The notes below the pieces were generated by a model. It saw only the letters and a program-made list of their open reading frames with translations. It was not told where the DNA came from and made no database searches. This document shows, in pieces, positions 18,079 to 45,860 of a stretch of 62,595 bases of DNA. Numbering within the stretch: position 1 is the first letter of the stretch; each line of letters opens with the position of its first letter. The stretch is from Candidatus Goldiibacteriota bacterium HGW-Goldbacteria-1 (GTDB lineage Bacteria > Oederibacteriota > PGYV01): contig PGYV01000002.1 of assembly GCA_002839855.1 (NCBI GenBank), forward strand, positions 1 through 62,595, given 5' to 3'. Position numbers and translations under genes: made by a program.

Positions 18079-18101
18079 TTATTATATGATTGGAGTTGTT
18101 T

Positions 18102-21653: not shown

Positions 21654-21667
21654 AAGGAGGCTTGAAA

Positions 21668-23234: not shown

Positions 23235-23245
23235 GAAATTTTAAA

Positions 23246-23277
23246 TTAACAGGACGAGTATACTTTATATTAAAGTA
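23246..23277 (+). promoter_or_regulatory. Weak promoter-like / palindromic site before the methyltransferase gene
   Basis: TTAACA (23246-23251), a 16-bp spacer, then TATTAA (23268-23273), overlapping a perfect 7-bp palindrome TACTTTA-TAT-TAAAGTA (23261-23277). It lies in the 75-bp gap that breaks the otherwise overlapping sugar genes. It could be a promoter with an operator, or just AT-rich spacer. Confidence 0.3.
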
Positions 23278-23309
23278 AAAATAATAATGGAAACGTTAGG
23301 AGAGAAAGA

Positions 23310-24473: not shown

Positions 24474-24498
24474 CGCTTTTATAAAACGGAGCTTAAAT

Positions 24499-26364: not shown

Positions 26365-29300
26365 TTGTCAAAAAATAAAAAAGAAAAAAATAATTTTTCC
26401 GAAGAAAAGATAGTTTTTAAGAATGGCTCCGGCAGGAATTATTCTTTTCTTTTGCCAGGATTACTTAAAGGTATTCATATCCCGCAGGTCTTACCTGCTG
26501 ATATGTTAAAAGGTATTGGTATCTTGTTTTCGGTTTTTTTATTGATTGCCGCTATGTTTTCTTTTTCTAACAGATTATACAATTATGCTTTTTGGCTTTT
26601 TATTATTCCTGTTTTAATTCTACTTATCTTTTTTACACCGAAGAATCTCGCAAATGCGGATAAACAAGAAAAGCTGCTGAATTTCACCGTTACTGTCGGT
26701 TCCCGTCTTTTTCTGATACTTAAAATGGCAATAGCGCTTTGCTTAACCCTGTTAGGACAATATTTTTTATTTAAAGGCAATATTTCATTTTCTTTATTAT
26801 CCTATGCGGGGGCGCTTGTACAGTTGGGATTTATATTTGAAATTAGTAATTATAATAATGACAATGCGGTAGCTGAAAGGTTTTCTGAAACGAAACGGGA
26901 ATTTGCATATGGAATTAAAGAATACTTGCTTTGGGGTGGTGTACTTTTTTCGCTTTTAGGTTCACTTTTTTCAGCTATTTCAGATAATGCCGGTTTGACT
27001 TTGATTTATTTTATTCTGACTGTATTTTTTATGTCTTTTCTTTATGTTAAAAAAGATGATGTGAAAATACCCGTTTTGGGTGGAATTACAAAAGTTGATT
27101 GGTTAATAGCCGCCGTGCTATTCTTTTTGGCTTTAATATTAAGGTTATATAATATACTTGATGTTCCCCCGGGTTTCAGTAAGGATGAATTAAATGCATT
27201 TAGTCTTTTTGAGCAGGCGAAAAAAAATGTACCGTTACCTATGTACATAGAGTCATTAGGCGCTGCCACTTTAGGTGCGGTATTTATAGGAAAACTTGGA
27301 ACTTTGTTTGGTCTTGATATGTTTACCGTAAGATTTTTTCATGCTGCCGCAAGTTCTTTTAATGTAGTTTTTATATTTCTTCTTGGAAGAGAATTGTTTG
27401 GAAGGAGAACAGGGGTAATAGCCGGTTTGATTCTGGCATTAATTTCCCAGCATCTCATATTTAGCAGCAAATTAGAGTCAATGAATTTAACAATGCTTGC
27501 AGTAACAGTTTCTTTTTTCTTTTATTTCGCAGCTTTAAGAAATGCCAATAAATTTTTTATGGTGGTTTCCGGAATTTTCCTTGGATTTGGGATATATCTT
27601 TATACACCCGGAAGGGTAGCACCGGTCATTTTGGTTCTATATTGGATAATTCTGTTTATCTTAAATTTAAAAGTGAAAGGTAAAAAGGATTTTCTGATTT
27701 TTAGCGTGATAATGGTTTTCGCTGCTCTTATTGTTTTTGCGCCTATGCTGGATTATGTTATGAAAAATACAGGTACATACTTTAAACGTGCTTCCTCTTT
27801 TAATATTCTGCCTTTATTATTTTCAAAGGACATGGGAAGTGCGGTGGTTTTGTGGGTGCATCAGTTTGGTATTCTATTCAGGCTGTTTTTTTCTGAAGGC
27901 TGTGCTAATGGGGTGCATAATTTCCCGGGAAGGGCTGCGTTTGATTATCTGACAGGTTTCTTTTTTCTTGGCGGCTTGGGGTATATGATTTATTACTGGA
28001 AATCAAGAAATAATTTATTCGTCTTGTTATGGTTTACTGTCGGGATGGGGATAGCAATAATATCTTTTGGGGCGGATTTATATCCGGCAAGGATAATTCT
28101 TGCAATACCCGCGGTCGCTCTGATTGCCGCAGTGGGATTGGATAAACTTACTTCGGTTCTTCAGGGTATTAAAATTAAAAAGTATTCTGCCGCATTACCT
28201 GTGATAATAATATTGCTGGCATTTATTGCGGTGCTTAATATGAACAGGTTTTTTGTAATTTATCCGCAGGACGCTTCTGTAAGGTTCATGTACGGCGCCT
28301 CTGCAGTGGAAATAAGGAAACTGGCAGAGAAACATAAAAACAGCAATGTCTTCTGTTCGCGGTACTTTTATGATACAAACCGCATAGAGTCACAGCTGTC
28401 AATGCACCTTGATTACCTTAAAATGAAATATTCGTTTATTGATGTTTCGGATGCGGACCTTTCCGCATACTATAATGCCGAAGGTAAAGATGTACTTATA
28501 GTGACAGAAGGTGTGTACACTTTTTCAAGGGACTATTTTCTGCGCTATTATCCCAATGCTAAAGTGTATTACATTTATGATAATATAGATTATTTATTTT
28601 CCGGCATCCGCTTCTTGACTGATGCTTATGGGTGGAAAAATCCGGGGGTTGTTACATCATTTATTAAAGAAAGGTACTTTGTGAATAACGCTTTTGACCA
28701 CTCTGTCCCGCAGGTTAAGGCCGTAGTTGTTTATATTCCTAATTCTGATATTCTTGCGCTGCACGGGTTTAATGTTGATTTTAAAGGCAATAAAGGGGAA
28801 AAGATAAATAAAAAATTAAGCGCAAATATGCTTGCGCCTGAAGCGGCAATGACGTCAGCGGTTATTTCAACGCTTATTGAAATTCCGGATTACGCCAAAT
28901 ATGATTTTTATGTTGAAGGATGTAAGTCTTATACAGCCGTTATTGATGGAAAATCCGCTTCTTCCGCGGAAATGCTTTACAAAGGATTACATATTTTAAA
29001 ATTAGAGATATCAGGTATTCAAAATCTGGGTGCTGTAATTAAATGGAGAAAAAATGGTGTGCGGTGGGAAGAAATACCTGTCAAATACTTTATTGATTCA
29101 ACAAATATAAGCGGGCTTATGGCTTCGTATTACGCGGATAGCAGGAAGGTTTATCAGCAGCTTGAACCTTTGATGCAGTACAGCAACTATTTTTATTCTC
29201 CGCGCATGGGTGTTAATTTGGCAAAAGGGAACGCCGGGGTTGTTTATAAAGGGCGCTTACTTGTAACAAAACAGGATAAGTATTCTATTATTTTTGAGAA

Positions 29301-29517
29301 TACTTCCGGTGGTGATGTGTATGTTGATGGGGTGAAAATTTCCGGACTTGATAGAGACGGAAGAATAAAAACAAGTGAGGTTGTGCTGGACTACGGATGG
29401 CATGATATAGAAATTAAGACCTATATTGGTCATAGTAATTCGGTAAACCGTTTATTGTGGAAACGAAATGAAGAATCAGTTTATAGGCATGTGCTTTCAG
29501 GAAATCTAAAACCATAA
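26365..29517 (+). CDS. GT-C (GT39/ArnT-like) membrane glycosyltransferase with PA14-like C-terminus
   Basis: A 1050-residue polytopic membrane protein. Two clusters of hydrophobic helices (about 45-250 and 245-640) flank the external loop motif PPGFSKDELNAF (D274-E275), equivalent to the catalytic acid of GT39/GT83 enzymes using polyprenyl-phosphate sugars. A large extracytoplasmic C-terminus (about 640-1050) carries two beta modules. One contains MLYKGLHILKLEISG. The second, from about 914, is a recognisable PA14-like domain with GLMASYY, VYKGRLLV, DVYVDGVKI and GWHDIEIKTY. PA14 domains bind carbohydrate or act as ectodomain platforms. The start is TTG. First of five paralogues. Confidence 0.8.
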   Translation: MSKNKKEKNNFSEEKIVFKNGSGRNYSFLLPGLLKGIHIPQVLPADMLKGIGILFSVFLLIAAMFSFSNRLYNYAFWLFIIPVLILLIFFTPKNLANADKQEKLLNFTVTVGSRLFLILKMAIALCLTLLGQYFLFKGNISFSLLSYAGALVQLGFIFEISNYNNDNAVAERFSETKREFAYGIKEYLLWGGVLFSLLGSLFSAISDNAGLTLIYFILTVFFMSFLYVKKDDVKIPVLGGITKVDWLIAAVLFFLALILRLYNILDVPPGFSKDELNAFSLFEQAKKNVPLPMYIESLGAATLGAVFIGKLGTLFGLDMFTVRFFHAAASSFNVVFIFLLGRELFGRRTGVIAGLILALISQHLIFSSKLESMNLTMLAVTVSFFFYFAALRNANKFFMVVSGIFLGFGIYLYTPGRVAPVILVLYWIILFILNLKVKGKKDFLIFSVIMVFAALIVFAPMLDYVMKNTGTYFKRASSFNILPLLFSKDMGSAVVLWVHQFGILFRLFFSEGCANGVHNFPGRAAFDYLTGFFFLGGLGYMIYYWKSRNNLFVLLWFTVGMGIAIISFGADLYPARIILAIPAVALIAAVGLDKLTSVLQGIKIKKYSAALPVIIILLAFIAVLNMNRFFVIYPQDASVRFMYGASAVEIRKLAEKHKNSNVFCSRYFYDTNRIESQLSMHLDYLKMKYSFIDVSDADLSAYYNAEGKDVLIVTEGVYTFSRDYFLRYYPNAKVYYIYDNIDYLFSGIRFLTDAYGWKNPGVVTSFIKERYFVNNAFDHSVPQVKAVVVYIPNSDILALHGFNVDFKGNKGEKINKKLSANMLAPEAAMTSAVISTLIEIPDYAKYDFYVEGCKSYTAVIDGKSASSAEMLYKGLHILKLEISGIQNLGAVIKWRKNGVRWEEIPVKYFIDSTNISGLMASYYADSRKVYQQLEPLMQYSNYFYSPRMGVNLAKGNAGVVYKGRLLVTKQDKYSIIFENTSGGDVYVDGVKISGLDRDGRIKTSEVVLDYGWHDIEIKTYIGHSNSVNRLLWKRNEESVYRHVLSGNLKP

Positions 29518-29540
29518 GTAAGATATTAATGGAGGAATAA

Positions 29541-32216
29541 ATGAAAGATATATTAATTTGGGTAATAGCGGGCGTATTACTTGTACTTTCCCAGGCAATG
29601 ATATTAGCGGAAAAAATGCCTGTTGCTGTTTTACTGCTTTCATTGGATGTAATGATAGTGCTGTTTATGTTCCTAAAGTCAAACAGGGAAATAAGAGACA
29701 AATTTGATTTCAGAAGCATAGCGGCAATTATCTCTGTTTTGCTTGCAATAACTGCCACGATGCTGGTAAGGACAGCGTCTGTAATGTCATTATATGTTTA
29801 TATAGCGGCTGCTTTATTCCTGCTTTTTTCCAGGCCGGCGGGGCATAGAATTTTTGAAGAAGCGGAAATAAAGACAGAGCCTGCTAAAATGGAAAAATGG
29901 GAACCGGTATTTTTTATGGTTCTATTAACCCTTACGTTTTTAAGCCGTGTAATAGCGCTTGGCGATATTCCCGCGGGTGTTGAAGGCGGGGAAATAGTAT
30001 GGATGGGCGATGCCATGCGCCTTGCCAATGATAAGGCAAGGTATTTCTGGCACCTTGGTTCCGGCGCTGAATGGCCTTCAATGACAACTTATCAGAGTAT
30101 TATCTTTGGTAAGATATTTGGATGGAATCTTGGAAACCTTAGGCTTGAAGGGGCGTTCTGGGGAATAGCAATGGTAATTACTTTATATTTTCTTATAAGA
30201 AGGATGTTTTCGCCGTTAACTGCGGCATTTGCAGCGGTTATTTTTTCGTTCAGCGAAAGCCAGATAATGATATCAAGATATATTAATCCCATTCACATCA
30301 TGTACACATGTATTATAGTTGCCACATGGCTTTTTATTGAAGCGCTAAGAAATAAAAAATGGTATATGTTTGCACTTTCCGGCCTTTTTACCGGTTTATC
30401 CATACACGGATATCTGCCCGGAAGGATATTGCCTGCAATACTTGCGATGCTGTGTATTTATGTATGGCTCTTTGACAGAAAACACGGCCTTAAATTTAAA
30501 CATTTAATGATAATGTTTGCCGGTGTTCTTGTAAGCGCCGGGCCTATCGCGTTTTTTGCATGGAAAGAACCGGAACTTTATTGGGGATATCTGCGCAGTG
30601 TCAACCCTAACGCGCATACCGGAGCATCAGCTTATATTCAGACATTTTTTAACAATATAAAAGATTATGCCGGCGCTTTTCATATCAGGGGCGGCGCAAA
30701 TCCTTCGCTTGCTGTTGCGTGCAAACCTTTATTAGACCCCGTGGCACAGGTATTATTCCCGTTAGGTTTATTCCTCTCTGTTTTAATGATATTTAAACCG
30801 TATGGTATTTTCTTCGTTGTTTTTTTTATCTTTACGTTATTGCCTGCAATGCTTGGGCAGGGAAATTCAGGGCACCCCGCAATGACAAGAATCATGGGGG
30901 TATTTCCGGCTGTTTACCTGATGATAGCGTTCGCGTATGAAAGGCTTAAAAATGTTTTTGTAGTCCCTGGGAAAAAGTTTGTTTCAGCTGTATTTATAGC
31001 GGTATCTTTAATGGCCGCGGTTTTTGCGTCATATAACGGTTTTGCTGATTACTTTGAAATGCAGTCAAAAAGGGATTATAAAATAGGAACTGCTCATTCT
31101 GATTATATAGTGGGTAAAGAAGTGGATAAAACAAAAAATGCAAATGTGATTATATCAGCACATCTGCGTTACTGGGGATTTGTAAATTCAGACAGGGTTT
31201 TCAGAAGGGTGTTATGGCCGGATGAAATGCTTATTCTTGACCCTGACAGGGAAAACCTGCTTATAATTGACCCTATATATAAAGGAACATCAAAATTTTT
31301 CAGTGATAATTTCCCAAACGCCTCAATAAAGCAGCTTGATTTTAAACCCGATACTCCCGAATATGCCTGCGGCGGAACTTTGATATATGACATTCACGCG
31401 CCTGATACAAGCAATTTTACTGTAAGAATACCTGCGGAAGATGTTAAAAGGTTTCAGCAGTTTGTGGATTCGTCAACAGGAGAAAAAGTTGATGTTGCAT
31501 CAGAAGAATTTATTGCCAAATATGCAGGTAAAAGCGTGACCCTTTTGGGCGCTGTTATTATTACGGAACGCGAAAAAAATGCGGTTATTAAATCCGGAAA
31601 AAAAGGGTGGCAGGTTTCTTTGAGCAGCGCGGGTTTTAAGGAATCGGCAGAAATTCCTTACCCCGGGGTGCATTATTTTAAGATTAAAGGTAATGTGGAT
31701 AAAAGCATGAATCAGGATGAACTTGTAAGTGTTATGGCAGATGGGGTTATGGCAAGTAATAGAATTTTTGGTATTAAAGAAAAATATGGGCTTAGAATGG
31801 ACTTCTATAAGTCAGAAGATCCGGACAAGCTTGGCAGGCCGGTGTTTTCAAAAAATATTCTTCTTCCGGCTTATAGGGTATATGACGGTTACGCAGCCCC
31901 GATGGGGGTGCCGTTTTTTGTGGTGTATTCTGCATTTTTGAATGTACAGGATAAAGCAAGTATTTCAATTTCCACTCTGAAGCCGTCAGAATCAAAAATT
32001 ACCGTAAATGGAAGGGTAATTTACAGCAGCCTGAACTCTGCCGAAAAAATGGATAATATATTATCATTTAACAATAAAGACGGCATATATGGCTTTAAAT
32101 GTTATAACCTTGCAGCAGGCGGCCCTACCGGCAGGACGGCTATATTTATGAAAAAAGAATCCGGGAAATTAAATTTTGAATACATGAATTATGACCAATT
32201 TCTGATAAATAAATAA
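29541..32216 (+). CDS. GT-C membrane glycosyltransferase paralogue with divergent ectodomain
   Basis: An 891-residue paralogue of the 26365 protein. About a dozen hydrophobic segments occupy residues 1-510. The external loop reads DIPAGVEGGEIVWMG: the usual Asp-Glu pair becomes E148-G-G-E151, so catalysis may rely on a shifted acid or be lost. The C-terminal ~380 residues are extracytoplasmic and beta-rich, with GLRMDFYKS and YPGVHYFKIKG echoing the PA14-like modules of its neighbours, but the domain is less typical. GGAGG precedes the ATG. It sits in an unbroken co-directional series. Confidence 0.75.
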   Translation: MKDILIWVIAGVLLVLSQAMILAEKMPVAVLLLSLDVMIVLFMFLKSNREIRDKFDFRSIAAIISVLLAITATMLVRTASVMSLYVYIAAALFLLFSRPAGHRIFEEAEIKTEPAKMEKWEPVFFMVLLTLTFLSRVIALGDIPAGVEGGEIVWMGDAMRLANDKARYFWHLGSGAEWPSMTTYQSIIFGKIFGWNLGNLRLEGAFWGIAMVITLYFLIRRMFSPLTAAFAAVIFSFSESQIMISRYINPIHIMYTCIIVATWLFIEALRNKKWYMFALSGLFTGLSIHGYLPGRILPAILAMLCIYVWLFDRKHGLKFKHLMIMFAGVLVSAGPIAFFAWKEPELYWGYLRSVNPNAHTGASAYIQTFFNNIKDYAGAFHIRGGANPSLAVACKPLLDPVAQVLFPLGLFLSVLMIFKPYGIFFVVFFIFTLLPAMLGQGNSGHPAMTRIMGVFPAVYLMIAFAYERLKNVFVVPGKKFVSAVFIAVSLMAAVFASYNGFADYFEMQSKRDYKIGTAHSDYIVGKEVDKTKNANVIISAHLRYWGFVNSDRVFRRVLWPDEMLILDPDRENLLIIDPIYKGTSKFFSDNFPNASIKQLDFKPDTPEYACGGTLIYDIHAPDTSNFTVRIPAEDVKRFQQFVDSSTGEKVDVASEEFIAKYAGKSVTLLGAVIITEREKNAVIKSGKKGWQVSLSSAGFKESAEIPYPGVHYFKIKGNVDKSMNQDELVSVMADGVMASNRIFGIKEKYGLRMDFYKSEDPDKLGRPVFSKNILLPAYRVYDGYAAPMGVPFFVVYSAFLNVQDKASISISTLKPSESKITVNGRVIYSSLNSAEKMDNILSFNNKDGIYGFKCYNLAAGGPTGRTAIFMKKESGKLNFEYMNYDQFLINK

Positions 32217-32273
32217 AGGAATTGATTTTATGATAATATAATGCGGATTAAACAGATAATATGAGAGGTATTG

Positions 32274-35258
32274 ATGATGCGAAAAAGTAAGCTTGATATT
32301 AAAAGTGAAATGGCGGCAGAAAAAAGGCTATTACCAGTTGGAAAACCTATATTTAAATATGCAGGTAATCTGATAATTTCTTTAATTTTAGCAGCGGTAG
32401 CTTTGATTTCTGTAACTTCTTTTAAAACTTCAGCAGGTTCGGCGCTGATATTTTTCTTTGTTTCTGTATGCGCGTATCTTTTTATGGCGGGAATAAAGAC
32501 TGAAACGTCAGAATTTTATCAGCAGACAGATTTCATTATTGGTAATAAATTGATTTTCACGGGTAAAGTATTAATAATGATATTGCTTGCTTTGCTGGGT
32601 GTCTATTTTATACGTTTGGGGAAGACGGCAGAGGGAATAACTGCTATAACTTTTTCTGTTATTCAGGCGATGCTGTTGTTTAGAGTGAATGCGGTTAAAG
32701 CTGCCGGTGCAGGCGAATTGAATGAAGCGAATAAGGAAGGCGTAATTGTCAATATACTTAATCTACTCATAATTACTGTTTCTTTTTATCTTTCGCTAAG
32801 ATATTTTAATAAATACAATTATGCTTTGGCGTTTTTCTTTTTTGTGTTTGGTTCTTTTTATAGCGGTATAGTTTTGAATAACCGTTCTTTTGCAGGTATT
32901 AAGTGGAATGTACGTGTTGATTACCTGATACTCGCGGTTCTTGCGGTATTATCTTACCTTATAAGAAGTCACATGATTATGGATATTCCGCCCGGGGTAA
33001 GTTATGACGAATGGCTTGCGCGTCCTGTTGCAGAAACTATTCTTGCCGGGAAAAATGTTCCGTTATTTCTATCGGATATTCCGTATCTTGTAGGTACTAT
33101 GTATTATTTTTGGCTTGCTGTATGGGGTAAAATGACGGGCGGGCTTACCTTTGAAAATATGAGGATGTTTTCTGTTTTTGCGGGGACGCTTAACGTTGTA
33201 ATGATATATTTTCTTGTAAGGGAAATGTTTGGCAGAAGAACAGCGCTTGTTTCTGCTGTTGTGATGACGTTCTTTTATTATCATGTTATTTATAGCCGGT
33301 TGTCATGGCTGTGGGTGTTTGTCCCCCTTCTTGCAACTTTTTCTTTTTGGTTCTATTTTAAAGCAGAAAATACGGGTAAAATAGTATATTATGCCTTATC
33401 CGGTTTATTTGTTGGATTGGGGTTATACTTCTATAACGCTTCTAAAATGGTTCCTATTATTCTGGTTTTATATTGGCTGTATCTTTTACTTTTTAAAAGT
33501 TACAGAGAATGGCTTAAATTAAATATATGGTCTATGTTTATTCTTATTGCCGCTGCGTTGGCGGTCTTTGGCCCGATGATAGGGTATATAACCGAACATT
33601 CTTTTGAATATTTTATGCGGATAAAAGGCGAAGCGGCTGCCAAAACAGGGACAAATATCTTTTCTGTTCAGTTTCTGAAATTTCTGGCTGAAAATAGCGT
33701 GAATAATTTTCAGCTTTTTCTTACAAAGTCCGGTGTGGGCGGTTATTTTAACCTGCCGCTGGTTCCTTTACTTGACAGGATAAGCGCGTTTTTCTTTTTG
33801 GCAGGGATGGGAATATCATTATTTAACTTTAAAAAACGGCATTATGCGTTTCTTCTGATTCTTTTTATATGCTCTCTTGCGGCCGCAATATTTGCGGTAA
33901 GCCCCTGGGATCCAAACAGTCAAAGGGCTATTTTAAGTATTGTACCTCTTATAATTTTTATTTCTATTGGTGTGACAAAGTTATGGGAATTTGCTGTGAA
34001 TTTAAATAAACGTATAATGATAATTATTTTGCCTGTTATATTTGCGGTGTTTATTTCTTTTACGGCGTATACCTATTATGATATGTATTTTGTACAATAT
34101 CCGGCAAATGACAGCGTAAAGAGTGATTTTTTCAGTTACGCAGCCAAAACGGTAAGATATGCCGACAGGATGAATGACAAAGGCAATAAAGTTTTTGTGT
34201 CGCATTTTTTTACTCTGCAGACATGTTTTTCAACAAAAAAAGAGATATTTTACATAGATCCCGGAATTCCTGAATACGACAAACTTTTCAACATAAAGAA
34301 AAATTCTGTAATAATAATGGAAAGTTTATATGATAAGCAGGCAGGTTATTACGCCGGTTTATTTGATAATACGCGTGTTATAAGAGATTATGAATTGTAT
34401 TCCCGGAATGCAGGCAGAAATAGCGATATATTTGGCCCGCGGCTTTATCACACAGGAATCGAAATTCCGGCCGATTCTATGAATACTACCTATGGCCTTA
34501 GCGCGAAGTATGATACTAATGGTGAACAATACAGAATAAAGTTATCAAATACCGCAATTCCATTAGTTCCCGAAGCAAAAAGTATAGAAATAAATGGATT
34601 AATATATGCGCCTCAGTATGGCCTATATGAATTCAAAATGAATAACAGTAATAATTATACTCTTATTATTGATAATCAGCTTGTACGCGGGAAGTTAAAT
34701 TTGTATAAGGGACTGCACAGTATAAAACTTCGGATTTCTGATCCGGGAAGCATGCAGGAACTTATGTGGAAAAACCCGCAGTCTTCGGACTACAGTATAA
34801 TTTCGCAGGAATATTTATTGAACAAAACAATAATTAATGGCTTGTTAGCGGAATATACAACTGTTGGGCCGGAAACTTATACGCAACTTGAAATATCACC
34901 AACGCATAGATACTATTTTTATAGCCCAAGAATTCCATTAAATTCAAAACGGATGGGGTATGACGTAAAATGGACAGGGTATTTTAATGCTGAAAAAAAC
35001 GGTAAATATAGTTTTAAGCTTGATTCCACAAAAGATTCATCTGTATATATTGATGGTGTAAAAATGTATTCGCAGATAGGTTCTGCAAAATATGAAAAGT
35101 CATCTGTTTTAAGCAAAGGCTGGCATAAAATAGAGATTAAGTATAATTTTGACTGTAATTCAATTGTTTATGGAAGGGAATCAGTATTAAGATTATTATA
35201 TCTATCTGATGCAAATGAATATGCGGTTGTTCCGTATAATTTGTTAAAACCATACTAA
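32274..35258 (+). CDS. GT-C (GT39/ArnT-like) membrane glycosyltransferase with PA14-like C-terminus
   Basis: A 994-residue paralogue. Hydrophobic helices fill residues 30-600; the external loop PPGVSYDEWLARP holds D245-E246. The ectodomain has LNLYKGLHSIKLRIS (first beta module), then a PA14-like domain from about 854 with GLLAEY, YFYSPRIP, VKWTGYFNAEKNGKYSFKL, SVYIDGVKM and GWHKIEIKYN. This is the clearest PA14 match of the set. GAGAGGT (32263-32269) precedes two tandem ATGs (32274, 32277); either could be used, and an in-frame TTG at 32271 is too close. Confidence 0.82.
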   Translation: MMRKSKLDIKSEMAAEKRLLPVGKPIFKYAGNLIISLILAAVALISVTSFKTSAGSALIFFFVSVCAYLFMAGIKTETSEFYQQTDFIIGNKLIFTGKVLIMILLALLGVYFIRLGKTAEGITAITFSVIQAMLLFRVNAVKAAGAGELNEANKEGVIVNILNLLIITVSFYLSLRYFNKYNYALAFFFFVFGSFYSGIVLNNRSFAGIKWNVRVDYLILAVLAVLSYLIRSHMIMDIPPGVSYDEWLARPVAETILAGKNVPLFLSDIPYLVGTMYYFWLAVWGKMTGGLTFENMRMFSVFAGTLNVVMIYFLVREMFGRRTALVSAVVMTFFYYHVIYSRLSWLWVFVPLLATFSFWFYFKAENTGKIVYYALSGLFVGLGLYFYNASKMVPIILVLYWLYLLLFKSYREWLKLNIWSMFILIAAALAVFGPMIGYITEHSFEYFMRIKGEAAAKTGTNIFSVQFLKFLAENSVNNFQLFLTKSGVGGYFNLPLVPLLDRISAFFFLAGMGISLFNFKKRHYAFLLILFICSLAAAIFAVSPWDPNSQRAILSIVPLIIFISIGVTKLWEFAVNLNKRIMIIILPVIFAVFISFTAYTYYDMYFVQYPANDSVKSDFFSYAAKTVRYADRMNDKGNKVFVSHFFTLQTCFSTKKEIFYIDPGIPEYDKLFNIKKNSVIIMESLYDKQAGYYAGLFDNTRVIRDYELYSRNAGRNSDIFGPRLYHTGIEIPADSMNTTYGLSAKYDTNGEQYRIKLSNTAIPLVPEAKSIEINGLIYAPQYGLYEFKMNNSNNYTLIIDNQLVRGKLNLYKGLHSIKLRISDPGSMQELMWKNPQSSDYSIISQEYLLNKTIINGLLAEYTTVGPETYTQLEISPTHRYYFYSPRIPLNSKRMGYDVKWTGYFNAEKNGKYSFKLDSTKDSSVYIDGVKMYSQIGSAKYEKSSVLSKGWHKIEIKYNFDCNSIVYGRESVLRLLYLSDANEYAVVPYNLLKPY

Positions 35259-35275
35259 GTAAGGGGTTGTGAATC

Positions 35276-35959
35276 GTGACAAAATGCCTTGTACTGCTTA
35301 CATGGAACGAAATTGAAGCTGTAAAAGCTCTGTATGATAAAATACCTAAAAATTATGATGAAGTATTTGTAATTGACCCCGGCTCTAAAGACGGCACACT
35401 TGAGTTTTTTAAAGAAAAAGGAATGCCCGTGCATATTCAGGAAAAAAAGGGCAGGGGTGTTGCTTTTATGATGGCGGCCAATATAAGCAAATCTGATCTT
35501 ATATTATTTTATAGCCCCGATGGCAACGAAGACTATAATGATATAGATAAAGTTTTTGCCCTTCTGGAACAGGGTTCGGATATAGCTATAGCGTCGCGGT
35601 TTGCAAAGGGTTCAAGAAACGAAGAAGACGGGCAGTTGTTTCCGTTGCGTAAATGGGCTAATCAGGTATTTACATGGATGGTAAATGTGTCCTTTAACAG
35701 GTCGGGTTATTATGTGACAGACACAATAAACGGATTCAGGGGTTTTAAAAGGCAGGTGCTGCTGGATTTGGGCTTAACTGCAGAGGGTTTTGCAATAGAG
35801 TTTCAAAGCTCCATAAAGGCATTTAAAAAAGGCCTTACCATAAAAGAAATACCAACTGCCGAAGGCGACAGGATAGGCGGCGAAAGCAAGGCCAAATCTA
35901 TCCCCACGGGAATTAAATTTGTAAAGTTGTACATTCAGGAATTATTCAGTAAAAAATAA
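35276..35959 (+). CDS. DPM-like family 2 glycosyltransferase (soluble)
   Basis: A 227-residue GT2 protein: CLVLLTWNEIEAVKALYDKIP, VFVIDPGSKDGTLEFF, GRGVAFMMAANISKSDLILFYSPDGNED and a TINGFRGFKRQVLLDLGL acceptor-side segment. It resembles dolichol-phosphate-mannose-synthase-type catalytic domains but has no transmembrane helix. The usual D-x-D metal site is SPDGNED. It may load a second sugar onto polyprenyl phosphate for the flanking GT-C proteins. The start is GTG. The methyltransferase gene follows after about 20 bp. Confidence 0.83.
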   Translation: MTKCLVLLTWNEIEAVKALYDKIPKNYDEVFVIDPGSKDGTLEFFKEKGMPVHIQEKKGRGVAFMMAANISKSDLILFYSPDGNEDYNDIDKVFALLEQGSDIAIASRFAKGSRNEEDGQLFPLRKWANQVFTWMVNVSFNRSGYYVTDTINGFRGFKRQVLLDLGLTAEGFAIEFQSSIKAFKKGLTIKEIPTAEGDRIGGESKAKSIPTGIKFVKLYIQELFSKK

Positions 35960-35978
35960 AAATAAAAGGCGGTTGAAT

Positions 35979-36638
35979 TTGAGCCAGAAAATTATAGAAC
36001 AAAGATATGGGGATTGGATTCCGGGCGATTTAGAGCGTGTTAAGGCAATTGTAAAAATGACAGAACCGGGCGGAAAAATTCTGGACATTGGCTGTGGGAC
36101 GGGTTTTATAGGGGAACAGCTGATAAAAAAAGGTTGTAAAGTATATGGTGTTGATTATTCTTTAGAAGCGGTAAAAAAGGCAAAACAAAAAGGTATTATA
36201 GCTGTTGCAGGTGATATAACAAAAAAAGCCGTTTTCCAGGGGATTAAATTTGATGGGATAATACTTGGCGAGATTATAGAACATATAATAGATACGGATG
36301 CTTTTCTTCAGGATTTAAAGAAAAAACTTAAAAGCGGCGGATATGTAATTATTACAACGCCAAACCTTGCCACTTTGGGCAGGCGCCTGCTTCTTCTTTT
36401 TGGTAAAAATCCGCATATTGAATATTATTACAGGGCAGATTCAGCAGGCCACGTTAAATACTTTGTCCGTGACACGCTTTTTGACCTGTTGAAATACAAT
36501 GGTTTTAAAATAGAAAAATTTACGTCAGATATTGTGAATTTTAACGGCAGCGGGTCGGTTAAGTCATCAGTTCTTGCCGGGCTGTGGCCGGGCATAGGCA
36601 GGACTCTAATAGTTAAAGCTGTAAAGAATGCAGTTTAA
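35979..36638 (+). CDS. Class I SAM-dependent methyltransferase
   Basis: About 219 residues with the SAM-binding motif ILDIGCGTGFIGEQL, the acidic VYGVDYS strand and DGIILGEIIEHI, then a FVRDTLFDLLKYNGF C-terminal segment. This pattern is common to UbiG/Methyltransf_11 proteins found in polysaccharide clusters; an O-methyltransferase role on sugar or lipid carrier is plausible but unproven. The start is TTG 35979, because AGGCGG ends at 35972, 6 bp upstream; an in-frame TTG at 35973 directly abuts that site. Confidence 0.85.
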   Translation: MSQKIIEQRYGDWIPGDLERVKAIVKMTEPGGKILDIGCGTGFIGEQLIKKGCKVYGVDYSLEAVKKAKQKGIIAVAGDITKKAVFQGIKFDGIILGEIIEHIIDTDAFLQDLKKKLKSGGYVIITTPNLATLGRRLLLLFGKNPHIEYYYRADSAGHVKYFVRDTLFDLLKYNGFKIEKFTSDIVNFNGSGSVKSSVLAGLWPGIGRTLIVKAVKNAV

Positions 36639-36670
36639 GTTATAAAAAGACGGAAAATGGCGGGGGCTAA

Positions 36671-39595
36671 ATGAAAAAGTTCTTTGAAGGGTTTGAATTA
36701 AGCGGCGGCTGGCAGGCACGCGCAATATTCGCGCTTGCCGGATTTGTGATGCTTGCTATTGCATATCTGAATTTTACCGGGTTTAAAGGGTTATTTGTAC
36801 CGGTAATGATATTCTTGGGGCTTGTTTGTGTATTTGTATATTTTTTTCTTTACGCTAAAAATGAAGTGATAAATAGTTATATATATGAATTTAAACCGCA
36901 GCCTATATGGCGAGGCGTATTAAAGGTATTAAACGCATTTGCGCTTGCGGCTGCAGGGTTATATCTTGATATAAAAAAAGTTCCTCTTATTCCTTATATG
37001 CTTTTTTTCTTTTCTCTGCTTCAGGTTATGCTTGCGGCAAGAATGAAAGGAATGAGAATTATAACGTATTTTTCTGAGTTATTACCAATGAAAGATGATA
37101 AATATCTTATAAAAAAAATGGTGTTGAATTTTGTTCTTGCTGTTGTTGTCCTTATATTTTTATCAAAGGGAATGTTATTTTTTTCTTTTGTAACTCTTTT
37201 TGTTATGGCTGTAATTACAGGGGATTTTTTTAACAACCGTGAATTTGCGGGGCAGGACAGAGATAAAACTTTGGATTATATTCTTTTGGGAATTATATTA
37301 CTTGCTGCGTTATTTTTCAGGTTTTACCGCCTTGACCAGGTTCCCCCCGGTTTTACATACGACGTCAGAAGGGCTTATGATATCCTGCTTTCAATGAAAA
37401 GGGGAGAGCATTTTGGCGTCTTTCTTCCGCAGGGTGATATTAATGCGGCGTCTATGACAGTTTACCTGTTATATTATTATTTGAATGTATTTGGTTTTGA
37501 TATCTTTAACATTAGGGTTCTAAGTGTCATTTCATCAATGGCGGCCATACCGTTCTTTTATCTGCTTATAAAAGAGATATATAACCGTAAAACTGCTGTA
37601 TTTGCGGTTTTGTTTTATTCGCTGATGTTTAATTGCATCCTTTTTTCAAGGCTTGATAACTTATTATATTTCCCTGTGCTTATACTTGCCGCAGGCCTTT
37701 ATTTTCTGCTTGCCGGGATAAAAAGGGGAAATATATTTTTTTTAGTACTTGCAGGCGTAATGGCGGGCTTAAACATGTACACATATCATTCCGGCAAAAT
37801 GCAAATAATAATATTATTTATTGGCTTTTTTATTTACGGTGTTGATTTTAAACGAATAAAAGATTCCTGGAAAAATACTGCCAATCTGTTTGTTATATGT
37901 TTTGCCGCTCTTGTTGTTTTCCTTCCGCTGCTGTACTTTATTGTGACGCAGTACGGTACTTTTATGGCAAGTGCAAATAACTTTATGCCGAAAGTTGACA
38001 CGGGTATTTTTAAATACTTCTTTGGAAACATTACGGATATATTATTTGCCTTAACCGTAAAAGGGTCAAATTACGGATATCTAAACCTGCCTTTCAGGCC
38101 TGTTTTTACAGGAATTCAGCAGTTTTTATTTGTTCTTGGAAGTGCTTACCTTTTATTTGGGATGAAAAAGAAAGAAAATATGCTTCTTATTATATGGATG
38201 TTTGCAGCTGTATTACCGGAGATATTTTTTACGCACCATGCAAATCCTTATTACTTTAGAATGATACTGGCGTTCCCGGTGTTTGCTGTTATTGCTGCCC
38301 TGGGATGTAATGTAATTTATAGGTATGCATCTGTAATCTGGCAGGGTAAACAGAAAATAATTTATATCTTAATATTTTTTGTCGTATTTGTTTCTTCTGT
38401 CGGATCATCCTACATTGATTACTTTATTAAATATCCAAAACACTCAAAAGTAATGGATCAGTTTGACTATGTGGCAAGTGAAATAGAGAAGATTGTAATG
38501 GAAAACAAAGGCAATATAGTCTACTATTCGGGATATATTCAGAATATAAGGTCTTTGTTTTGTGTTTACTGTGGCGACATGGGTCATATTATAAAAAAAG
38601 ACGTTTCCTCTTTAACAATCTCGGACTTTTATACGGAAGATGATAAAGATGTTGTTATTATTGCGGAAAATATTTATGCTTACTACTTTGATTACCTTAA
38701 AGAATACTTTCCGGATATCGTTATTAATAAAGTTGAAAATAAGGAAGGTTTGGAGCTATGGGTCGATCCCATGAGGCCTGAATTTAAATACATTGTTGTT
38801 AAAATACCTAATGAGGACATAAAAAAACTTTACGGATTAAAGGCGGAATTTTATACTGAAGGCAGATTAATTACAGAAAAAATTGTGCATGGGTCATTTT
38901 TATTACCTGAAAAGGCTGACAGGGTTGTTATAAAAGGGCTGTTGGATATGCCTGATTATGACCGTCTAAAACTTTCTTTTAATCGCGGAGTCAGTGCGAT
39001 TATCAGAATAGACAATGCACCCTATGATGGCAGGAAAATTTACAAAGGGCTTCATTATTTCACGGCGGAAATAAATACCGGTAATTTAGGTGCCGTTGAT
39101 ATGTCTTGGGAAATTAAAGGTAATAAAACTGTTGTTTCTGTTAAAAACCTTATAAACACGGAGAAAATCTTTGGCATTCAGGCTTCTTATACGTTTAATT
39201 TTCTTGATAAGAAATTTGTAGAGTTGGAACCTATAGTGGAAAACAGGTATCTTGAGTACATGCCAAAATTTGAAACCGGAGGGGACAGTTATTTTAATGT
39301 CAGGTGGGACGGATACTTTTATGCCGCTGTGGAAGGGTTGTATACTTTCGGGATTAAAACGCCTGCCAATTACTGTAACTCTATTTCTGTCAATGAGCAT
39401 GAAATATATGCATACAGCGGGGAGAAAGAACAGACAGCTGTGTACCTTAAAAAAGGGTGGCACAAACTGAATATAATATCTTATTCGCAGGTGATAGCTT
39501 TCATGAATATGGTTTACAGGCTTCAGGTAAAGGGGCCGGAAGATAAGGCGGAGAGGACAGTCTATTATAATGAGCTCTCTCCGTTTTATCATTGA
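36671..39595 (+). CDS. GT-C membrane glycosyltransferase paralogue with PA14-like C-terminus
   Basis: A 974-residue paralogue. Hydrophobic helices span 15-590. The external loop is VPPGFTYDVRRAY, keeping the Asp (D231) but with Val where the Glu normally follows. The ectodomain contains KIYKGLHYFTAEI and a PA14-like module from about 833, with GIQASYTF, VRWDGYFYAAVEGLYTFGI and GWHKLNIISYS; the 'VDGxKI' sugar-site element is replaced by ISVNEHEIY. The start is ATG after GGCGGGGGC. It is the fourth member of the GT-C series, separated from the third by a GT2 and a methyltransferase. Confidence 0.78.
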   Translation: MKKFFEGFELSGGWQARAIFALAGFVMLAIAYLNFTGFKGLFVPVMIFLGLVCVFVYFFLYAKNEVINSYIYEFKPQPIWRGVLKVLNAFALAAAGLYLDIKKVPLIPYMLFFFSLLQVMLAARMKGMRIITYFSELLPMKDDKYLIKKMVLNFVLAVVVLIFLSKGMLFFSFVTLFVMAVITGDFFNNREFAGQDRDKTLDYILLGIILLAALFFRFYRLDQVPPGFTYDVRRAYDILLSMKRGEHFGVFLPQGDINAASMTVYLLYYYLNVFGFDIFNIRVLSVISSMAAIPFFYLLIKEIYNRKTAVFAVLFYSLMFNCILFSRLDNLLYFPVLILAAGLYFLLAGIKRGNIFFLVLAGVMAGLNMYTYHSGKMQIIILFIGFFIYGVDFKRIKDSWKNTANLFVICFAALVVFLPLLYFIVTQYGTFMASANNFMPKVDTGIFKYFFGNITDILFALTVKGSNYGYLNLPFRPVFTGIQQFLFVLGSAYLLFGMKKKENMLLIIWMFAAVLPEIFFTHHANPYYFRMILAFPVFAVIAALGCNVIYRYASVIWQGKQKIIYILIFFVVFVSSVGSSYIDYFIKYPKHSKVMDQFDYVASEIEKIVMENKGNIVYYSGYIQNIRSLFCVYCGDMGHIIKKDVSSLTISDFYTEDDKDVVIIAENIYAYYFDYLKEYFPDIVINKVENKEGLELWVDPMRPEFKYIVVKIPNEDIKKLYGLKAEFYTEGRLITEKIVHGSFLLPEKADRVVIKGLLDMPDYDRLKLSFNRGVSAIIRIDNAPYDGRKIYKGLHYFTAEINTGNLGAVDMSWEIKGNKTVVSVKNLINTEKIFGIQASYTFNFLDKKFVELEPIVENRYLEYMPKFETGGDSYFNVRWDGYFYAAVEGLYTFGIKTPANYCNSISVNEHEIYAYSGEKEQTAVYLKKGWHKLNIISYSQVIAFMNMVYRLQVKGPEDKAERTVYYNELSPFYH

Positions 39596-39674
39596 TTATT
39601 AAGTGTAATTCTGATATTTTATATCAATTGGCGGTTTGAACAAAAAAACAATAAAGATAAAATAAGGAGGATTT

Positions 39675-40658
39675 ATGGCTAAAAAGAAGACAGGGGTAAA
39701 GGCAAAAGCAAAAAAAAGTTTAAAGACAGCGGCTGTTCAGCCGGCTGCGGCGCCGCAGGTTGCGCCCAAAACCGCGCCAAAGAAGAATCTGGTAATAATA
39801 ATTGCCGCTGCAGTTATTCTGTTTCTGGCGGTAGAAATGACTTTTGTCGTTAAAAAACAGGCACAGTCAAACAAAAAACCGGTTCTTGTCACCACGTGGG
39901 ATGTTAAATATGGCGGGCAGATAGGCATGCCTGTTTCCGGCAAAAGCCTCTTTGTAATTGATAACAATTTCAACCAGATAAAAAGATACGGAAAAATGGA
40001 CGGCAAGGTAATTGAAGTGCTTCAGTTTGAAGTGTCGCCTGAATGGGCTGCCGAAGATTCCAAAGGTAATGTGTATGTAACGTTAAAAGGCGACCCTGTG
40101 GTATATCTTATGAAAAAAGGCAAACCTGTAGAGTTTATAAAAGAAGGGTTTAATGATCCTACTAATATTGTAATTGATAATCAGGATAACATTTATATCA
40201 GTGATGGTGGCGCAGGAAAGATATATAAATATGACATTGTCGGAACTAAGCTTATGGAATTTGGCGGCCGTGGAACAGGCAAGGGGCAGTTTATAAGGCT
40301 TGGTAAAGTATCTGTTGACAGCAAAGGCAATGTTTATGCCATAGCTATGGCCAACCCTATAATGGTAAAAGTTTTTTCACCGGAAGGAAAATTTGTAAAG
40401 GAATGGAAACTGCCTTTGACAGCGCTTACCGGGCTGGAATCACTTGCTATAACTGATGATGGTAATGTTTATATTAATGATATGCGCGAAGCTGCCATTA
40501 AGGTATTCACTAATAACGGAAAACCGCTTGGTAAGTTTGTAAATGACGCGGGAATGACATATAAAATAGGTGTTCCGGGTTCGTTTTCCGGCGGGCAGGA
40601 TAATTATCTGTATGTGGGCAGCTTTAACGTGGCTGTTTTTGAACCCATACTTTATTAA
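39675..40658 (+). CDS. Membrane-anchored NHL-repeat-like beta-propeller
   Basis: A 327-residue protein with a Lys/Ala/Pro-rich cytoplasmic tail (1-37), one transmembrane helix (about 38-58), then an extracytoplasmic domain with five or six NHL-type blades (GNVYVTLKGD, DNIYISDGGAGKIYKYD, GNVYAIAMANPIMVKVFSPEGKFV, GNVYINDMREAAIKVF). NHL propellers bind proteins, RNA or ligands; those next to GT-C genes are uncharacterised. AAGGAGG precedes the ATG. Placement between two GT-C genes suggests it belongs to the same envelope complex. Confidence 0.82.
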   Translation: MAKKKTGVKAKAKKSLKTAAVQPAAAPQVAPKTAPKKNLVIIIAAAVILFLAVEMTFVVKKQAQSNKKPVLVTTWDVKYGGQIGMPVSGKSLFVIDNNFNQIKRYGKMDGKVIEVLQFEVSPEWAAEDSKGNVYVTLKGDPVVYLMKKGKPVEFIKEGFNDPTNIVIDNQDNIYISDGGAGKIYKYDIVGTKLMEFGGRGTGKGQFIRLGKVSVDSKGNVYAIAMANPIMVKVFSPEGKFVKEWKLPLTALTGLESLAITDDGNVYINDMREAAIKVFTNNGKPLGKFVNDAGMTYKIGVPGSFSGGQDNYLYVGSFNVAVFEPILY

Positions 40659-40687
40659 TACTAAAAAAAATATCAGGGAGAAATTGC

Positions 40688-43600
40688 GTGTCTAAGAAAG
40701 CCGAAATGTACTTATTTATAGTAATAGCCGCGGTTCTGTTTGCTGTGGGACAGGTAATGTTTATAGTTAATTCGGCTTTTGTTACGGGCGGGATATTTAT
40801 GGGCCTTGCTATTCTTGTCGCGATACTCTATTTTTCCGGAGTGTATGAAAAATTAAAAGTATCTTCTGTAGGTTTGTTTGTTAAACTGCGTGAAAGCATA
40901 AAACAGCAGCAGTTAAATCCCGGTGTTTTACCGCGTGATAATGCTGTGAAGAAAAGTTCTGTAAATATTACCCCGCAGAAGAAAGAGATTATTGCTAAGG
41001 CGGGGAATCCTGTTCCAAAGGATAATCAGCAGAAACAGGTTTTTAAAATAGCTTTTTCCAGAAACTGGCTGCTGGCCGCTGCGGGATTGTGTTTTGCGGG
41101 GGCTCAGGTTTTTCTTATGATGCAGAAGTATGTTCCCGCTGCCGCGCTTCTTGGGGCAGCCCTTGTTATATTATTATATTTTGTAATAAATAAAAACAGT
41201 GTGATAGGGCTTGATCTTGAATTTGAGAATACAACAAAAATACTGTTTGCCCTGTCAGGGTTTATTCTGCTTGTTGCCGGCTGGGTATTGCTTATAAACA
41301 GGGGCAATATGATTCAGAACATCGGCGTTGGCGTCACTACGGTCGGCATATTCCTTTTGTTCTGGGGGCTGCCTGAAAACAAAATGGCGTATGAAGACAG
41401 GGAAGGCGGGCAGGAAATTCTTTTTACCGGCAACAGGTTTCTTGACAATATCTGGGTAAAACTGGCGCTGCTTGGAATAATGGTTCTGGCGCTTATTGTG
41501 GGAAACAAAATTGCTTTTCATACATCGCTTGGCCTTTATTCAATGGTCTTTTACGCAGCTGCTATAGCTTCTTTCTTTTTTGCGATGCCTTTAATACCGT
41601 ATAAAGAAGTAATAAATGACAATAAGTTTATGAATTACCTTAAAGTTGTTGCTGTAATTGCGGCAGTATTTTTAGCTTACCTGGGGCAAAAACAATTTCT
41701 TGCGGAAAAAGTAAACGACGCTGTTATTTATTATATTATTGCTGCCGCTGTTTTAATAACATTTTTTCCGGTATCACTTAAAACAGGCGATAAACAGCCT
41801 TTTTCACTGAAAACGGAATATATTTTTGTTATTGGCGTTACATTGCTTGCGTTGTTTTTAAGGGTTTATGAACTTGATAAAAGGCCGTTTGGGCTGGAAA
41901 ATGATGAATCCGGCGGCATGATATCTGTGGTGAAAAATTTCTGGGTGGGTCAGCACCCTATATACGCGTACATCTGGGAATTATGTTATAACGTTTTTGG
42001 GCTTACCAGAGTGGGGTTAAGGATGTATGGCGTTCTGCTTGGTACATTATCAATACCTATAATGTATTTTGCGGTAAGAAGTATATTTAATGTTAGGACC
42101 GCGATGTTTGCCTCGGTTTTGTTCGCGTTTCTGCGCTGGAATCTGCATTATGGCAGGTCCGGCCACGGGACTGTGATGGCAATAGTGGCAATTACTCTTG
42201 CTGTTTTCTTTATATTTAAAGCGATTCAGAAAAGGGATAAATTTACTTATTTTATGGCGGGGGCAATGAGCGGCCTTTGCTGGTATGGTATCTTAACAGG
42301 GTGGTTTGTTGTACTTGCGCCTTTGTTATATTTTGTCTTTGAAAGTTTCAGCAAAAAGAATTATTTTAAAAGGAATATGGTGGGCCTGCTTGTTTTTATG
42401 CTTGGTTTCTGGCTGTTTGCATCACAGCACATAAAAAACTATTTTATTTCCACCAACACTTATTTCAGCCGTATAAGCGAAGTTTCCGTATTCAGCCAGG
42501 ACCCCAATGCGCCGGTTAAAAATCCCGCTATCGGTATTATTGAAAATACCCAGCGTGTGCTTTTAATGTTTAACCACCACGGCGACAGCAGGCAGCGTAA
42601 CAGCGGCGGAAATCCTTATGAACCCGCAGTGGATTTTGTAACGGCAATGCTTTTTGGGCTGGGTTTCTTTTATTGTATTTATTACAGTAAATTTAACGCT
42701 TTCTTTATACTGGTCATGCTGTTTTTCTCGCAGGCGGCAGGGTCTATCTTTGCCATAGAAGCCCCCAGCGCAATGAGGGCGGTAGGGACAATGATACCTA
42801 TGATATTTTTTGCGTCTGTTGTGTTTGATAAAGTGTGGTACGCTTTTTCAAATGTATTCAAAGGAAAATTCAGGGACGTAATAGTATTTCCGCTTCTGCT
42901 TGCGTGCTTTCTTGTACCTATTATAATTGCCAACTATAATCAGTATTTTAAACGCTGGGTGGGCGGTATGGACGAACTTTCAACCGCAACCGGCACCTAT
43001 GCGCAGAAGCTTGGAAAAGATTACAGGGTTTTTCTATACACAGGCCTTTATTATCCGGGGCACCCGCCGTTCAGGATTCAAAGATGGGATTACAAAGTGG
43101 ATGCTTCTATAGAACCTGCTGACAATGATTCTGTCCTTGCCAAGGTTGACAGCGAAAATTACGCGATATTTTTTCATTACGATGTATGGCAGACCGAAGA
43201 TATCTGGAAACAGATGTACCCGAATGCCGCTTTTGACACTTTCAGCCACCCCGGTTTTGGAAAGATGTTTGATGTATTAATGATACAGAATGCTGATATC
43301 GCGGCAATGCGCGGCCTTAGCGGCCGGGTGGCAGGTAATAGTGTTAATAACGCGCTGCCTGTTTTCAACGCTGAAGATAACGGCAAAGTTCCATATAACA
43401 TAACGCTTGAAGGTAAGGTGCTTATACCTTATTATGCAGACTGTTATTTTGGCAATACAGGAACGGCAAAAGTGTCTTATACCATTGACGGAATATCGGT
43501 TAATGACAGTAATCAGAAAATAAGGCTTGCGAAAGGTTTTCACAATATCAGAATAACCGGTTCAAGAAAGTCTGTAAGTGACACGTTATACCCTGTAATG

Positions 43601-44107
43601 TCGCTTTTTAGGGTAGTTGGAAATTCAAGGGGCGGCAGGGAAATATATACGCTGAATGAAAGGTACCTTTACTCTATAAAGGATAACGGATTAAGAGCTG
43701 TTTTTTACGCCGGCGAAAAGTGGGAAGGCGCTGTAAATAATGAAGTTATTACGCCTGCGGCGCTTTTTGCCAGGGCTAATGACGCTGTAAAATTAAGCGG
43801 GTATTTAAATGTGCCGGACGGGGCTGAATATAAATTTATCCCTTCAAATAATGGTTTTCTGGCAATAGTGGTAGATGGCAGGCAGTATTGGGACAATATG
43901 GCGGGTAGTATAATAAAAGAAGCCATTTATAAACCCGGGATGAAAAAAGTATCAACGTTCAGGCTTGAAAGCGGAAAGCACAAAATAGAGGTTTATACGC
44001 TTGGTGCGTCATTCTTATCTCTGCGGTTGTCAGTCAATGGCGGGGAAGAACGCGGTTTTAATTTTGGTGAACTTGAACCGGACTATTCAAGGATTAGCTA
44101 TAATTAA
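40688..44107 (+). CDS. Largest GT-C membrane glycosyltransferase, PA14-like C-terminus
   Basis: An 1139-residue paralogue and the longest of the five. Extra N-terminal helices (about 1-350) precede the GT-C core, whose external loop is RPFGLENDESGGM (D406-E407). The catalytic core resembles GT39/ArnT most strongly (WNLHYGRSGHG, WYGILTGWFV). The ectodomain has two beta modules. The last, from about 1000, is PA14-like: GLRAVFYAG, KLSGYLNVPDGAEYKFI, AIVVDGRQYWD and GKHKIEVYTLG. The start is GTG with CAGGGAG upstream. A GTAG hairpin follows the stop. Confidence 0.82.
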   Translation: MSKKAEMYLFIVIAAVLFAVGQVMFIVNSAFVTGGIFMGLAILVAILYFSGVYEKLKVSSVGLFVKLRESIKQQQLNPGVLPRDNAVKKSSVNITPQKKEIIAKAGNPVPKDNQQKQVFKIAFSRNWLLAAAGLCFAGAQVFLMMQKYVPAAALLGAALVILLYFVINKNSVIGLDLEFENTTKILFALSGFILLVAGWVLLINRGNMIQNIGVGVTTVGIFLLFWGLPENKMAYEDREGGQEILFTGNRFLDNIWVKLALLGIMVLALIVGNKIAFHTSLGLYSMVFYAAAIASFFFAMPLIPYKEVINDNKFMNYLKVVAVIAAVFLAYLGQKQFLAEKVNDAVIYYIIAAAVLITFFPVSLKTGDKQPFSLKTEYIFVIGVTLLALFLRVYELDKRPFGLENDESGGMISVVKNFWVGQHPIYAYIWELCYNVFGLTRVGLRMYGVLLGTLSIPIMYFAVRSIFNVRTAMFASVLFAFLRWNLHYGRSGHGTVMAIVAITLAVFFIFKAIQKRDKFTYFMAGAMSGLCWYGILTGWFVVLAPLLYFVFESFSKKNYFKRNMVGLLVFMLGFWLFASQHIKNYFISTNTYFSRISEVSVFSQDPNAPVKNPAIGIIENTQRVLLMFNHHGDSRQRNSGGNPYEPAVDFVTAMLFGLGFFYCIYYSKFNAFFILVMLFFSQAAGSIFAIEAPSAMRAVGTMIPMIFFASVVFDKVWYAFSNVFKGKFRDVIVFPLLLACFLVPIIIANYNQYFKRWVGGMDELSTATGTYAQKLGKDYRVFLYTGLYYPGHPPFRIQRWDYKVDASIEPADNDSVLAKVDSENYAIFFHYDVWQTEDIWKQMYPNAAFDTFSHPGFGKMFDVLMIQNADIAAMRGLSGRVAGNSVNNALPVFNAEDNGKVPYNITLEGKVLIPYYADCYFGNTGTAKVSYTIDGISVNDSNQKIRLAKGFHNIRITGSRKSVSDTLYPVMSLFRVVGNSRGGREIYTLNERYLYSIKDNGLRAVFYAGEKWEGAVNNEVITPAALFARANDAVKLSGYLNVPDGAEYKFIPSNNGFLAIVVDGRQYWDNMAGSIIKEAIYKPGMKKVSTFRLESGKHKIEVYTLGASFLSLRLSVNGGEERGFNFGELEPDYSRISYN

Positions 44108-45841: not shown

Positions 45842-45860
45842 AATGAGCGGGGAGACTACT

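Follow-up and report, generated by a model that had tools for sequence, protein, structure and literature searches.

The stretch analysed here (the window; 62,595 nucleotides) comes from Candidatus Goldiibacteriota (candidate phylum Goldbacteria) and carries a run of 20 genes (15965–47192) in which five long plus-strand frames, P1–P5, are predicted to encode GT-C-type glycosyltransferases that each end, as judged from family and profile comparisons, in two tandem PA14-type modules. The gaps in the run are mostly shorter than 80 bases, and two larger ones measure 229 and 174 bases. The run probably represents an accessory locus for extracytoplasmic glycosylation with a Gtr-like logic, in which the GT-C enzymes would dock their acceptor through the PA14 pairs. 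In a search that left most subscription journals outside, no publication was found that deals with Goldbacteria glycosyltransferases or with GT-C enzymes carrying tandem PA14 modules; the combination of GT-C with PA14 seems largely undescribed, as do its distribution across the phylum and its association with a protein-export system. The findings point to a widespread family of extracytoplasmic glycosyltransferases, unstudied as far as searched, in a phylum without cultured members; an NHL propeller recurs as its partner, and a type IX secretion system (T9SS) cargo protein and PorV recur as its export pair.

GT-C cores and tandem PA14 modules

A sequence-only reading of this DNA had proposed five large polytopic GT-C proteins, and the frames lie where it placed them, P3 starting at either TTG 32271 or ATG 32274. 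PMT_2 (PF13231; Pfam) scores above its cut-off in all five (E 4e-9 to 5e-12), each protein has 13–19 hydrophobic peaks, and extra helices precede the GT-C start. At the level of sequence, P1–P5 are GT-C-type enzymes. An AlphaFold2 model of P3, the sole whole-protein model, was built from 10 sequences with a mean predicted local distance difference test score (pLDDT) of 72; it supports a GT-C membrane fold for this protein, as Foldseek returned AglB, STT3, ArnT, AftD, AftA, Pmt4 and ALG9 after the PA14 pairs. An oligosaccharyltransferase identity was rejected, the WWDxG motif of STT3/AglB/PglB being absent from all five proteins; P1 reached 25.5 bits with the archaeal STT3 model, whose cut-off is 450.

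The first-loop motifs KDE, EGGE, YDE, YDV and NDE occur in P1–P5, respectively, as had been read; the accompanying suggestion that the loop acids have diverged holds mainly for P2. Among about 50 aligned GT-C cores the first-loop Asp is retained almost throughout, including in P1, P3, P4 and P5, while P4 and its orthologue have DV instead of DE. P2 has a Gly in the Asp column and a Glu one position further on; in genomes G007 and G037 its relatives carry His and Glu there, likewise followed by an acid at the next position. This alignment leaves P2 as the only clear candidate for lost or changed activity: it has diverged, and may either lack activity or rely on a different acid.

PA14 (PF07691; Pfam) exceeds its cut-off over two stretches of P3 and scores below it in P1 and P4. 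A Pfam search yields no PA14 in P2 or P5, where the domain was detected by profile-profile comparison only. The extra β module with YKGLH previously noticed in three of the proteins is itself the first PA14-type module; its counterparts YPGVH in P2 and AKGFH in P5 indicate two such modules in all five, divergent in P2 and P5. The C-termini were cut into the two modules, and P3-, P5- and P2-type family alignments were compared by hhalign. First modules gave 98.3% (P3–P5), 96.0% (P3–P2) and 85.7% (P5–P2), second modules 98.3%, 97.7% and 94.6% for the same pairs, and P3 module 1 against P3 module 2 gave 98.9%; an unrelated α/β domain of the same proteins, the negative control, gave 0.1–0.2%. The RsgI3 tandem PA14 pair headed the matches to a profile of ten C-termini (E 1.7e-27), followed by anthrax protective antigen and by Vip proteins, and eight of the 10 members of the C-terminal alignment matched the PA14 profile. 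The pLDDT of the P3 model is mostly 80–90 over residues 730–995, where two β sandwiches lie, and Foldseek ranked the PA14 pairs 6qe7 (the best) and 6qdi first (E 1e-13). The PA14-like C-termini that had been proposed are thus upheld, and the predicted structure of P3 displays tandem ectodomain β sandwiches together with the GT-C fold.

Table 1. Predicted features of the 20-gene run (window positions). Cut-offs for RfbF, RfbG and RfbH are equivalog cut-offs. TM, transmembrane; CDP, cytidine diphosphate; NDP, nucleoside diphosphate; TPP, thiamine pyrophosphate; SAM, S-adenosylmethionine; aa, amino acids.
Feature	Position	Strand	Assignment	Support or layout
RfbF	15965..16804	+	glucose-1-phosphate cytidylyltransferase	TIGR02623 403.6 bits, cut-off 300
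RfbG	16808..17860	+	CDP-glucose 4,6-dehydratase	TIGR02622 461 bits, cut-off 278
RfbH	18090..19442	+	CDP-3,6-dideoxy-4-keto-hexose intermediate	NF011936 723 bits, cut-off 423
GtrA	19430..19861	+	GtrA-type small membrane protein, candidate flippase	PF04138 93.5 bits
Sugar-tailoring genes	19839..25410	+	TPP enzyme (19839), HpcH/HpaI aldolase-like (21662), HAD phosphatase (22473), C-methyltransferase-like (23310), NDP-sugar epimerase (24499)	
GT2a	25412..26344	+	GtrB/ArnC/PgfS-like polyprenyl-phosphate-sugar synthase	PF00535; two C-terminal TM helices
P1	26365..29517	+	GT-C, 1050 aa	N-terminal TM region, GT-C core, tandem PA14 modules ~28708-29514; PMT_2 4e-9
P2	29541..32216	+	divergent GT-C, 891 aa	two divergent PA14-type modules 31419-31781, 31782-32213; PMT_2 1.4e-10
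P3	32271..35258	+	GT-C, 995 aa	PMT_2 1.2e-11; PF07691 1.7e-12, two stretches
P3 TM region	32271-32900	+		
P3 GT-C core	~32901-34130	+		
P3 α/β domain	~34131-34442	+		
P3 PA14 module 1	34443-34829	+		
P3 PA14 module 2	34830-35255	+		
GT2b	35276..35959	+	AglJ/dolichyl-phosphate-hexose-synthase-like GT2 without TM helices	TIGR04182 98 bits, below cut-off 325
Methyltransferase	35973..36638	+	SAM methyltransferase	PF13489
P4	36671..39595	+	GT-C, 974 aa	tandem PA14 modules ~38768-39592; PMT_2 5.4e-12
NHL	39675..40658	+	membrane-anchored NHL-type β-propeller	NHL 21.0, cut-off 20; one N-terminal TM
P5	40688..44107	+	core GT-C, 1139 aa	divergent tandem PA14 modules 43283-43681, 43682-44104; PMT_2 4e-11
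T9SS cargo	44282..45841	+	predicted secreted protein with T9SS type A sorting domain	TIGR04183 32.4 bits, cut-off 23
PorV	45834..47192	+	PorV/PorQ-family outer-membrane protein	NF033709 102 bits, cut-off 90

Phylogeny, gene neighbours and composition

In the core tree, P1, P2, P3, P4 and P5 each group with orthologues from other families before grouping with one another. By this tree the five are old, separate paralogues; a recent amplification of five copies is rejected, and with it the earlier view of them as an amplified set. Relatives were sought on contigs with a profile from five rows, a 14-row alignment being too diverse; L073–L076 correspond to contigs already present in G006, G008, G004 and G009, respectively, and were counted once. 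In G009 and G004 the GT2a orthologue has a P1 orthologue (32–35%) downstream, and a P4 orthologue (37%) lies beside rfbF in G009. Among 13 genomes searched, eight further members of the order have P5 orthologues (33–48% identity), in fragments in one case. The contigs of the same-genus genomes G001 and G002 stop at the block border, and absence of the block there is not claimed. PA14 is present in 36 of 45 genomes of the phylum, many of the PA14 modules in the loci examined being fused to GT-C cores and some not; in the window's own genome all six PA14 matches are in GT-C proteins. The Chloroflexota GT-C relatives that were retrieved have no PA14 module, and a viral origin was rejected, there being no match in viral contigs. 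Another array of five GT-C genes with tandem PA14 lies outside the window's order, in G018:C89 (L085:1078-18979), where four of the five form a clade of their own.

RfbF, RfbG and RfbH form the route to CDP-3,6-dideoxyhexoses; a TPP enzyme like that at 19839 can attach a branch of two carbons. From the upstream genes, a sugar derived from a CDP-3,6-dideoxyhexose is predicted. Among these genes lies gtrA, single-copy in the genome, at the place previously proposed for it except that it starts at 19430 and not at 19439. The GtrB-like GT2 at 25412 also stands, as does the proximity of GtrA and polyprenyl-phosphate-sugar-synthase-like GT2 enzymes to these GT-C genes. GT2a is nearest to PgfS (177 bits), followed by ArnC (121 bits), both below cut-off. 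Its orthologues in G009, G004 and G007 are 66–72% identical; in G009 and G004 (one other genus) they sit between CDP-sugar genes and the P1 orthologue, and in G007 the orthologue precedes a P1-like gene. This synteny makes P1 the best candidate user of the CDP-derived sugar. Orthologues of GT2b (68–71%) adjoin tandem-PA14 GT-C genes or the NHL gene, and the orthologue of the methyltransferase (61–67%) adjoins the P5 orthologue in G009 and G004.

P5 has the NHL gene as a neighbour in each of the seven genomes of the order that could be tested, and also in several from outside the order. An NHL neighbour was found in 15 of 39 tandem-PA14 GT-C contexts and in 0 of 16 with a single or no PA14 module, counts that are not an independent-sample statistic because the contexts are related. 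In G037, one 1497-aa frame (L096:5949-10439) combines an NHL-like region, GT-C and PA14, with NHL and PMT_2 just below their cut-offs. The same genome encodes a 1489-aa protein fusing PMT_2 and DUF2298 (L101:13874-18340).

The T9SS cargo/PorV pair is found with P5 in the window's own genome and in G004, G007, G008, G009 and G010, the PorV orthologues (60–66%) adjoining the cargo gene in the latter five. The own genome holds 27 matches to this PorV-family protein, and a search for SprA matched four segments within a single 2101-aa frame, the strongest at 95 bits (cut-off 200). The sorting domain, the PorV-family proteins and the SprA-like frame (window 44282-47192; G000:C2:109955-113302) suggest a divergent type IX secretion system in the phylum.

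The guanine-plus-cytosine (GC) content of P1, P3 and P4 is 0.35–0.36, and that of the sugar genes is also low; 116 3-kb windows elsewhere in the genome average 0.418 (standard deviation 0.017), none of them as low as P1, P3 or P4. P5, NHL and the T9SS pair are near-genomic (0.41–0.44). From this contrast and the co-occurrence of P5, NHL, T9SS and PorV genes, the block looks like a mosaic of a native core plus an acquired low-GC cassette.

Proposed route and its alternatives

We infer the following route. RfbFGH and the tailoring enzymes would make a CDP-linked, probably branched 3,6-dideoxyhexose, which GT2a would transfer to undecaprenyl phosphate, and GT2b would make a second lipid-linked sugar. 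GtrA, or another flippase, would turn these donors to the periplasmic side, where P1, P3, P4 and P5 would add single sugars to an acceptor held by the tandem PA14 modules; the NHL propeller is a putative partner of P5. The acceptor would most likely be a growing surface glycan, or alternatively surface proteins. That the modules hold the acceptor, as the sequence-only reading had suggested, is plausible by likeness to the carbohydrate-binding modules of EmbC (PMC3044687) and GT136 enzymes (PMC11127046) and to B4GALNT3 (PMC11254600); its lectin-like form, glycan binding through calcium, is unsupported.

PA14 lectins bind sugar via two consecutive Asp residues (DcisD) and calcium (PMC8092209). 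This Asp-Asp motif occurs in none of the 10 window modules, and a pattern search found it in 3 of 12 PA14 modules of other open reading frames. Its absence from all GT-C-fused modules examined leaves the calcium-lectin mode unsupported for them. The first module of RsgI3 keeps the motif and the second, in the alignment to the ten-C-termini profile, also lacks it, so that the GT-C modules may use other binding modes.

Several points weigh against the proposed route. The motif occurs in 0 of 124 GT-C-fused modules (overlapping loci not fully deduplicated), and there is no residue-level support for sugar binding by the PA14 modules. The C-terminal model of P5 is poor (pLDDT 40) and its fold matches were not used as proof, so the PA14 assignment of P5 and P2 rests on profile comparison. 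One GtrA, the only flippase surveyed, cannot be shown to serve five enzymes; P1, P3, P4 and P5 have no proven common donor; and no paper was found on surface glycans of this phylum.

The same motif loss, together with the strong divergence of the P2 and P5 modules, the confinement of the NHL neighbour to tandem-PA14 GT-C contexts and the NHL-GT-C-PA14 fusion in G037, would fit modules that are structural or protein-binding, serving oligomerization or propeller docking rather than glycan binding. This is a credible reading, to which we give somewhat less than even weight. It has to contend with the PA14 pair of RsgI3, the closest solved relative, which is reported to bind pectin (PMC4711584), and with the acceptor-binding modules demonstrated after the GT-C core in EmbC and a GT136 enzyme. 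Separate expression of the PA14 pairs would allow the ligand of such GT-C enzymes to be tested without the organism.

The recurrence of P5 with the cargo/PorV pair bears on the nature of the acceptor. The GT-C enzymes might glycosylate exported proteins, with the PA14 pair and NHL recognising protein acceptors such as the adjacent T9SS cargo. PgfS is part of a streptococcal protein glycosylation set, and its position as the nearest family of GT2a, like the oligosaccharyltransferases at the top of the GT-C fold matches, points the same way. We think this unlikely nonetheless: the oligosaccharyltransferase motif is missing, the PMT_2 family does not separate protein from glycan acceptors, and the co-location may mark merely a shared surface locus. 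Quite unlikely, in our view, is a combined arrangement in which the NHL propeller and paired-PA14 GT-C enzymes build a glycan that modifies or anchors T9SS proteins; in it, P5, NHL, cargo and PorV would form the conserved core, and the remaining GT-C genes would be interchangeable cassettes that alter the glycan.

A classical Gtr-type modification, in which GtrA, GtrB and GT-C decorate O-antigen, here with extra GT-C effectors, would account for the GtrA, the GtrB-like GT2 with its two C-terminal helices and the GT-C proteins, but is very improbable, since P1–P5 match no Gtr effector family in Pfam or NCBIfam and are far larger than Gtr effectors (a size taken from general knowledge), other genomes pair GT-C sets with different partners, and P5 recurs with NHL, T9SS cargo and PorV-family genes rather than gtrA. 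The locus is not a classical Gtr system, and the lack of an effector match together with the partners of P5 leaves its earlier description as an enlarged one unsupported.

Related systems and minor observations

GT-C enzymes with acceptor-binding modules are already established (PMC3044687, PMC11127046), as is PA14 in a glycosyltransferase (B4GALNT3; PMC11254600). Mycobacterial EmbC/AftD arabinosyltransferases likewise have a polytopic GT-C core followed by extracytoplasmic β-rich binding modules, and AftD and AftA are among the fold matches of the P3 model; they differ in having C-terminal carbohydrate-binding modules in place of the PA14 pair, and in sequence relation, donor and envelope. 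The three-component GT136 system of Citrobacter youngae shares a lipid-linked sugar synthase, a flippase and GT-C. Its C-terminal module binds the acceptor O antigen (PMC11127046), and the PA14 pair would be the counterpart here. That system has a donor derived from phosphoribosyl pyrophosphate (PRPP), a MATE flippase, one GT-C and an Ig-like carbohydrate-binding module, whereas the present locus has CDP-sugar genes, GtrA, five GT-C proteins and PA14 pairs.

The same two domain families meet in one PMT2/PA14 protein of Chloroflexi bacterium 44-23 (PMC8756737), known from an appendix table entry alone that does not give the number of PA14 modules. RsgI3 (PDB 6qe7; PMC4711584), the closest solved ectodomain relative by profile and fold, is an anti-sigma factor and biomass sensor, not an enzyme, and its first module, unlike the GT-C modules, carries the Asp-Asp motif. 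Salmonella/Shigella GtrABC also sets a GtrA-family protein and a GtrB-like GT2 beside GT-C enzymes; here the GT-C proteins are not Gtr effectors, are several per locus and have other neighbours. B4GALNT3 needs its PA14 domain for activity (PMC11254600), but this mammalian Golgi enzyme is non-GT-C and has only one transmembrane anchor.

Arrays of 7-base repeats (GTGACAG/CAGGTAA, then CTGTAAC/TAACTTC-type units) and 8- to 48-base GCAGCTGG-type repeats are intergenic, at window positions 1-287, 3440-3727 and 47195-47475, and also at 12894-13091, 14138-14236 and 53335-53373. A gene for a 23S rRNA intervening-sequence-type protein lies at window 13127-13471, with others at L076:16581-16979 and L109:3301-3663; in relatives this gene turns up repeatedly, close to the T9SS pair and either close to or within the set of CDP-sugar genes.

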